A DNA stretch of 64,000 nt from Nocardioidaceae bacterium (GTDB taxonomy: Bacteria > Actinomycetota > Actinomycetes > Propionibacteriales > Nocardioidaceae). Shown one piece after another: positions 49,130 through 50,727 of this stretch. The notes beneath the pieces are model-generated. The model was not told the origin of the DNA. It did no database searches and saw only the letters and a program-made list of their open reading frames with translations. The translations under genes and the position numbers were made by a program. Each line of letters opens with the position of its first letter. Position 1 is the stretch's first letter. The stretch spans positions 62,001 to 126,000 of the forward strand of contig JAURVT010000043.1 of the NCBI GenBank assembly GCA_030655315.1. Reading direction: 5' to 3'.

Positions 49130-49735
49130 ATGGACCGAGAGGCTCGACCAACCGGTGGACGAAGTAGGCGAGTCGAGCTCGCCGTCGTGCACGTCGTGGA
49201 GGCGGACTGGGCGCGCGTCAGGGCCGTCCGCCTGACCGCCCTGGCCGAGTCGCCCCGGGCGTTCGGCTCGTCCCACGCCCGGGAGGCCGCATATGACGAG
49301 GCCGATTGGCGCCGCTGGTGCCGCGACACGTCCACGTTCCTCGCGACGCGTGACGGCGCTCCGATCGGGATGGTGGCCGGGGTCGGCGGGACCAGCCATG
49401 ACGAGCGCAAGGTCGTCGCGATGTGGCTCGATCCGGGCCACCGGGGGACGGGTGCCGCGGCGGCGCTCCTCGTCGCCGTGTAGGACTGGGCCCTGGGCGA
49501 CGGCGCGACCACGTTGGCGCTGTGGGTCACGCGGGGCAACGACGCCGCCACCGGCCTGTACCGGCGGGCCGGGTTCACCGCGACGGGCGACTCCAAGCCT
49601 CTCCCGAGCGACCCGACCCTCGTCGAGGACCTGTTGGTCCTCGACCTGGTGTCCACGGTGGCGGGCCGCGGCGGTGGCTCGGCGGGTCGGTCGGCGTCAC
49701 CCGATGTTCGGCGACCGGAGGGTCGCATTCGGTGA
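49130..49735 (+). pseudogene. GNAT acetyltransferase split by an in-frame TAG
   Basis: The frame encodes a GNAT protein: RAVRLTALAESPRAFGSSHAREAAYDEADWRRW, the acetyl-CoA motif VVAMWLDPGHRGTGAAAALLVAV, then a TAG at 49481-49483 (codon 118), then in the same frame DWALGDGATTLALWVTRGNDAATGLYRRAGF, the second half of the fold. A single base change (for example from GAG) would make this stop. Either a recent nonsense pseudogene or a sequencing error. The ATG has CACGAT 6 bases upstream inside the dyad CAGGCA-CGA-TGCCTG (49114-49128). Confidence 0.8.
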
Positions 49736-49854
49736 GGCGAGGGCGGAGTCGTCCGTGACGGCCGCGAGCATCCCGCCCACGGCCCTCGCGCCACGGTTCG
49801 GGGCCGGGTCCCGAGCGGCGTGACGATGCTGGGCATCGACACTTGCCAGGGCGA

Positions 49855-49870
49855 TCGAACGTGTGTTCGA
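49855..49870 (+). promoter_or_regulatory. Canonical LexA (SOS) box
   Basis: TCGAAC-GTGT-GTTCGA is a perfect match to the Gram-positive/actinobacterial LexA site TCGAAC-N4-GTTCGA. It ends 8 bases before the GTG of the 67-aa ORF, overlapping where a leaderless -10 would lie, a position suited to repression. Confidence 0.8.
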
Positions 49871-49878
49871 CTGACCTC

Positions 49879-50082
49879 GTGAGTCGAGACGGCGAGACGG
49901 AGCGGCAGTGGGCCGCGGGGTACGAAGCGGCGCGGACGTACTGCCTGACCCGAGGTGCGGTGCACGCGCAGCACCTGAGACCCGCGTCGCCCAGCCCGGC
50001 CTTCGAGGCCGGCTACGACTGGGGGGTCTGGGACTACGAGGACGCCAACGGTCTGCCCCACGGCCGCGAGCGGGGCGCCTAG
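49879..50082 (+). CDS. Small SOS-box-controlled protein, unknown function
   Basis: A 67-aa acidic protein from a GTG start: ERQWAAGYEAARTYCLTRGAVHAQHLRP, then FEAGYDWGVWDYEDANGLPHGRERG. The spacing of W, GY, A, Y, G and a closing G-x-W-x-x-x-x-x-x-G-L faintly recalls the helicase-associated (HA) repeat, as a single unit; this is a weak resemblance. No membrane segment. The LexA box just upstream predicts induction by DNA damage. The ribosome site is weak (leaderless start likely). Confidence 0.6.
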   Translation: MSRDGETERQWAAGYEAARTYCLTRGAVHAQHLRPASPSPAFEAGYDWGVWDYEDANGLPHGRERGA

Positions 50083-50160: not shown

Positions 50161-50727
50161 ATGACCGACCGGTGCGACCTCGAGTCCGTCGAGACCGCTC
50201 GTCTGAGACTCCGCCGCCGCCGCGTGAGCGACGCCCGGGTCCTCCACGAGCTCTGGACCGAGCGGGACCCGCGCGTTCCCGCACACCGTCGGATCGACGC
50301 TGACGGGCGACCGACGGAGGCCGACCTGGCCGCCCGGATCCTCGAGGACGACGGCTCACGCCCCGGGCTGCTGACCGTCGAGCGCCGGGACGACGGCGAG
50401 GTCGTCGGGTGCTGCGGGCTGGTGCGGACCGGCGTCGCCACGCCTCGTGAGCCCGCGCTGGCCTTCGAGCTCCTGCGTCGCGCGCAGGGTCGCGGTCTCG
50501 CGACGGAGGCGGGCGAGGCGGTGGTGGACCTGGCCGGAGCGGCCGGGCACGACCGGCTGTGGGCCACGGTCTGGGACTGGAACCGTCCGTCACGCCGCGT
50601 GCTCGAGAAGCTCGGCTTCACGGAGTCGAGGTCCGAGATCGGCGTGGCCGGCGCCCGGACGCTGGTGATGGTGCGCGCGCTGAGTCCTCGGGGGCCGGCC
50701 CGTCAGGACGGCCCGCCGAGCCGGTGA
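50161..50727 (+). CDS. GNAT acetyltransferase (RimJ/RimL-like)
   Basis: A 188-aa N-acetyltransferase: ETARLRLRRRRVSDARVLHELW at the N-terminus, GEVVGCCGLVRTG strand, ALAFELLRRAQGRGLATEAGEAVVDLA carrying the acetyl-CoA loop (RGLATEA, about residues 113-119), and TVWDWNRPSRRVLEKLGF. Pattern of the ribosomal-protein-alanine acetyltransferase-like group; the substrate is unknown. Convergent with, and overlapping by 25 bp, the next gene. Confidence 0.85.
   Translation: MTDRCDLESVETARLRLRRRRVSDARVLHELWTERDPRVPAHRRIDADGRPTEADLAARILEDDGSRPGLLTVERRDDGEVVGCCGLVRTGVATPREPALAFELLRRAQGRGLATEAGEAVVDLAGAAGHDRLWATVWDWNRPSRRVLEKLGFTESRSEIGVAGARTLVMVRALSPRGPARQDGPPSR

Follow-up and report, generated by a model that had tools for sequence, protein, structure and literature searches.

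A perfect LexA/SOS operator with palindromic half-sites, TCGAACGTGTGTTCGA, lies on the forward strand at positions 49855–49870 of the window (i.e., the whole stretch of 64,000 nucleotides analysed here), directly upstream of a 67-codon gene that looks like a real member of an undescribed family of damage-response proteins. Gene and switch move jointly among soil actinobacteria, in many cases on mobile DNA of the conjugation type, and this joins a known regulator (LexA) to a new protein family and to an unexpected mobile-element link. Comparison between genomes supports LexA control, selection at the level of the protein and portability of the pair. The account that we consider probable is that of a LexA-repressed and likely leaderless gene for a soluble, mostly acidic helical hairpin, which forms a portable module with its operator and would serve its element as a protein-binding effector.

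The gene (49879–50082, forward strand) begins with GTG at 49879–49881, 8 nt after the box, and ends with TAG at 50080–50082. In a scan of the window the operator is the sole LexA-box match with zero or one mismatch, the other eight matches each carrying two. Upstream lies a broken GNAT acetyltransferase gene (49187–49735, forward strand), with matches to Acetyltransf_1 on both sides of an in-frame TAG at 49481–49483 (profile positions 16–81 and 86–116 of 116), and downstream an intact GNAT acetyltransferase gene (50161–50727, forward strand; Acetyltransf_3, E 5e-19); both are given for context only. This layout confirms the initial annotation, which had described a perfect LexA box 8 bases before the GTG of a 67-aa ORF set between a broken and an intact acetyltransferase gene. 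It further proposed a small protein induced by DNA damage; comparison lends strong support to SOS (LexA) control (boxes in 22/22 relatives, purifying selection, boxes at recA and ruvC), and induction on damage is what we infer.

Conservation of the operator and layout of the promoter

A search of 98 genomes with the single sequence gave four clear relatives, and a profile search of 341 Nocardioidaceae genomes gave 22 full-length members (the window's included) and four weak or partial hits, i.e., about 22 of the 341 family genomes carry the gene. A contig scan with the single sequence as query gave no match; the alignment as query then gave 14 loci in a scan of named genomes, mostly from Nocardioides and one from Aeromicrobium. 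Samples at the level of order and class, a limited first look that leaves room for members elsewhere, held clear members only within Nocardioidaceae, and no relatives of the small protein were found in the phage, plasmid and IMG/VR collections.

Box and ORF occur together in every full-length relative: directly upstream, 22/22 have a LexA site that agrees at 11 or 12 of the 12 defined bases, whereas the remainder of these loci, 60,501 positions, contains 0 such sites. The distance from box to start codon is 8 nt in most relatives and 7 in a few. When the 22 are aligned with the box as anchor, the information content is 1.3–2.0 bits in the defined columns of the box and about 0.1–0.7 in most flanking ones, and what stands out besides the box is the TG of the start codon, a TTGAC-like block 5–6 nt before the box and a T two bases past it, kept in 21/22 relatives although it lies outside the palindrome. 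The 22 relatives share ancestry and are hence not independent, but their flanks have diverged and the box has not. Ratios of dN/dS are 0.12–0.39 in close pairs and 0.44 (dN 0.33, dS 0.75) between the window copy and its nearest relative; by these values, the small protein is under purifying selection. A chance palindrome in front of a spurious ORF might be suspected in high-G+C DNA, which is rich in such ORFs, from the short frame and the GTG start, but the 22/22 conservation of box, spacing and protein and a dN/dS well below 1 refute this idea and leave it a negligible probability.

In three copies the N-terminal part of the gene seems to be damaged (by a stop, a frameshift or a lost start). 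These copies (L070, L071 and L075), whose lesions are an in-frame TAG, a mismatch of start and frame, and the lack of an in-frame start immediately after the box, keep the LexA box, and a downstream ATG exists.

A −35-like hexamer, TTGCCA (49843–49848, forward strand), corresponds to the TTGAC-like block of the 22-relative alignment (TTGACC or TTGACG in most), and a probable −10 element, TCGACT (49867–49872, forward strand), overlaps the 3′ half-site of the LexA box. The spacer between them is 18 nt long and the start codon stands 6 nt after TCGACT. With these elements and this spacing, transcription would begin on the GTG or right beside it, so that a leaderless mRNA is probable; the M. tuberculosis lexA mRNA is likewise leaderless (PMC2897130). 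A strict sigma-70 consensus scan called no promoter at the small gene, a miss that is expected because the −10 element is TCGACT. A leaderless, LexA-blocked promoter appears to be the natural reading of this arrangement: sitting between the −35 and −10 elements, bound LexA would cover the spacer and the −10 element, block RNA polymerase and keep the promoter shut. DNA damage, or single-stranded DNA arising from phage attack or conjugation, would then lead RecA to trigger the cleavage of LexA, and a burst of the small protein would follow.

LexA sites elsewhere in the same genome

The window's genome (4.18 Mb) encodes both LexA and RecA and contains seven perfect TCGAACNNNNGTTCGA sites, versus none for a reversed control pattern. 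A LexA box, TCGAACAGGTGTTCGG, precedes recA; ruvC, a radical-SAM gene and a DUF222 gene each have a box of this form upstream, and LexA-type sites precede a LysM-domain gene that adjoins lexA. On this pattern, a box of the type found at the small gene is the LexA operator in this organism. A further box lies upstream of a 236-aa ORF without a Pfam match, in the same TTGAC-N4-box promoter layout as at the small gene; we take this ORF to be ImuA-like.

The LexA motif of Streptomyces venezuelae reads tCGAAC-N4-GNNCGa, and the targets there include a radical-SAM gene (PMC9380542). The case described here resembles the LexA regulons of S. venezuelae and Mycobacterium tuberculosis in the sequence of the operator, in its placement over the promoter and in its companions in this genome (recA, ruvC, radical SAM and DUF222), but differs in that the regulated gene encodes a small protein without a Pfam, NCBIfam or PHROGs family, seen only in Nocardioidaceae. 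The actinobacterial SOS response would thereby gain a protein family that has no name yet and whose promoter is almost invariant. Among the papers in the collection searched, none joins LexA, the SOS regulon and Nocardioides.

Several of the sites merit description in their own right. At the DUF222 (13E12-type) gene (L106, 226–1562), the ATG follows the site TCGAACACACGTTCCC at a distance of 16 nt. Between the divergent LysM gene and the lexA side (L105, about 1524–1570), overlapping LexA-type sites, GTGTTCGATAGAACCTGTGTTCGATCGAACACGTGTAC, may act as a double operator that controls a LysM-type SOS protein. At L002 (1501–1664) the ATG of a 52-codon frame falls within a perfect LexA box (MFDPRVLTGDPERVK...), which makes this frame a candidate for a second small SOS gene of this genome. 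One more perfect box stands 9 nt ahead of what may be the start of a methyltransferase gene (L006, 658–1516), and another (L007, around 1501) has no clear gene downstream. Not all seven perfect sites look functional, because the one at L003 lies inside a long coding frame.

The small protein and its possible roles

AlphaFold2 models the window protein as a helical hairpin (helices 2–25, 27–32 and 40–56; pLDDT 87.7), and an element-borne member has the same layout (helices 5–24, 27–36 and 42–58; pLDDT 85.2). Among the residues conserved in all or nearly all members are G14, Y15, L23, G45, D52, D55, A56, N57 and G58; the second-helix motif WDYEDANG is invariant, and 17 of 19 members carry a net charge of −2 to −7. 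Neither a membrane segment or other hydrophobic stretch nor a LysM domain is visible in the sequence, and the protein is predicted to be a soluble helical hairpin.

The family appears to be new, with no match in Pfam, NCBIfam or PHROGs and members seen only in Nocardioidaceae. At E ≤ 10, five members matched no Pfam family, NCBIfam and PHROGs returned nothing apart from one irrelevant weak hit, and PADLOC returned no match among 13 members. The best fold matches were E 6.4 in the PDB, Z 2.4 with VIA-align and, in BFVD, an unnamed 62-residue viral protein (E 0.39; TM 0.64/0.69), a short helical hairpin being too simple for such matches to mean much. The faint similarity to a helicase-associated repeat mentioned in the initial annotation was dropped, since no Pfam match at E ≤ 10 was found. 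The ribosome modulation factor (RMF, PF04957), considered because of a GYxxG...GYxxA pattern, was rejected: hhalign gave a probability of 2.0% (a weak negative with only 4 RMF rows) and hmmscan no match. The likeness is a superficial GYxxG...GW/GYxxA helical-hairpin pattern, and the small protein is mostly acidic whereas RMF is basic. A phage protein named RMF came no higher than rank 42 in the fold search (E 9.5), and no RMF relatives were gathered from the phage or IMG/VR collections. One weak profile hit (L103, E 9e-4), which came from a genome of a different family and shows an RMF-like NPY motif, has neither a LexA box nor a PF04957 match and was set aside.

For small SOS proteins the initial annotation had mentioned roles in inhibiting division or in assisting repair. 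Many small SOS proteins block cell division (PMC9578287), and SOS control and small size would fit an inhibitor that stops septation during repair, as do SulA, YneA, SidA, SosA and the LysM-type proteins of actinobacteria. The gene shares with YneA, SosA, SidA and the LysM-type inhibitors its small product and LexA control, but the product has no membrane segment or LysM domain, is modelled as a soluble hairpin and matches no Pfam family. Beside lexA the genome encodes a LysM protein of its own, preceded by LexA-type sites; both this and the patchy, mobile distribution of the small gene, present in about 22 of 341 genomes, speak against a core checkpoint. We regard an inhibitor of division as quite improbable.

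Mobile elements are also known to carry anti-SOS proteins (PMC9578287), and a modulator of RecA or SOS in the manner of PsiB or DinI, binding RecA or a partner to damp or prolong the response to single-stranded DNA during transfer, would likewise be small, acidic, borne on an element and, as here, next to a replication gene. The mobile-element SOS modulator PsiB and the SOS small protein DinI are small, acidic, SOS-linked and often found on conjugative DNA (see also PMC9578287). However, profile searches in Pfam, NCBIfam and PHROGs gave no PsiB- or DinI-type match, and no relation in sequence or fold to any known family was detected; here an all-helical hairpin is predicted and the LexA box is the gene's own, and PsiB-like proteins act on entry and do not require LexA control. 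Such a role is unlikely, if conceivable.

The reading of function that we favour, without holding it strongly, is that of a protein-binding effector useful to mobile DNA, in which the WDYEDANG motif of the second helix would bind a host or phage protein to the benefit of the mobile element. Its target might belong to the RecA/SOS machinery, to replication, to phage defence or to the cell cycle.

Mobile elements and the Prim-Pol slot

In many Nocardioides the small gene has a LysM-domain gene on one side and a gene for a Prim-Pol primase-polymerase on the other, and it adjoins the Prim-Pol gene in 12 genomes. Around these genes stand TadE-like, T2SSF (Tad-type pilus), ParB-like, NlpC/P60 and DUF6112 genes. 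A further copy, L115, has a TraG-type coupling protein and an ArdC-like gene in its vicinity, and for L074 the nearby gene is a phage-type integrase. From this gene content we call the host elements integrative-conjugative-type. Copies of the small gene thus occur as cargo inside elements with replication and conjugation genes, variably present at one site, and comparison supports the view that box and gene have been gained and lost together in such elements of Nocardioides. Among the papers in the collection searched, none joins Nocardioides, ICE and primase.

Relatives of Prim-Pol occur in 71 of 319 family genomes and are absent from the window's genome. Among the best 30 of these loci, 11 have the gene and the box, the latter 376–518 bp upstream of Prim-Pol on the same strand, and 19 have no box; a twelfth pair of gene and Prim-Pol is in G283. 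The 19 have no site above 10/12, their 10/12 sites being part of the Prim-Pol start region, and one of them (G168) holds a decayed remnant of the gene without a box. The position of the box in the 11 elements might suggest that it serves replication or transfer by way of Prim-Pol, with the ORF as a passenger. But elements without the ORF lack the box as well, even where their Prim-Pol is up to 93% identical, orphan copies without Prim-Pol retain it, and the ORF is itself under purifying selection; the pattern of presence and absence rejects the box as Prim-Pol's own and makes this explanation very unlikely. The box therefore belongs to the small gene, and the two form one occupant of a variable slot, moving as one unit because sister elements without the gene are also without the LexA site.

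The window's copy is a chromosomal orphan, with ordinary chromosomal genes as neighbours, and its nearest relative is an orphan in N. alkalitolerans (64% identity). At least five copies are chromosomal orphans of this kind without a visible element. Comparison of orphan loci found no neighbour gene in common and no conserved adjacent partner of the kind expected in a toxin-antitoxin pair. On the preferred account, the window copy would be a chromosomal orphan of the portable module; a small tree fits descent of orphans from elements and of elements from orphans alike. These orphans and the three damaged-looking copies speak against that account.

Upstream of Prim-Pol (L119–L148), the slot holds different genes in different elements. 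In sister elements without the SOS gene these include GmrSD_N, UvrD-type, LeoBC, AbiJ-like and ZacA genes. Such company would suit a phage-defence or self-killing effector, interchangeable cargo beside Prim-Pol that uses SOS as a damage alarm, and frequent loss and damaged copies would fit a costly gene; PADLOC, however, gave no match, no partner or antitoxin gene is conserved alongside, and we hold this reading to be possible but doubtful. The same tentative standing is given to a broader form, a new class of SOS-gated effectors of phage defence or anti-defence, i.e., a helical hairpin of 60–75 residues with the host's LexA as its only sensor, carried as interchangeable cargo beside the replication gene of conjugative elements in Nocardioidaceae and retained by some hosts as an orphan. 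Any link to defence or anti-defence would come from the position in the cargo slot only, and in most gene-bearing elements the upstream neighbour is an element core gene, not a defence gene.

A conjugative-element function turned on by DNA damage has a likeness in the UV-inducible sensitisation of SXT/R391 elements, which involves orf43, a homologue of traV (PMC4885824); orf43 is a conjugation gene, whereas the present one stands alone, has its own LexA operator and is absent from many sister elements. In these comparisons a LexA operator and the gene behind it shift together as one module, within a slot of mobile elements that is taken up in other cases by anti-phage genes. It thereby becomes possible to test directly if mobile DNA relies on the damage alarm of its host for the timing of a protein for defence, counter-defence or the modulation of SOS. 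Homology between elements ends about 110 nt before the start of Prim-Pol, at CTTAGGGATACCT; GGTATCC words recur in this stretch, which may be an origin.
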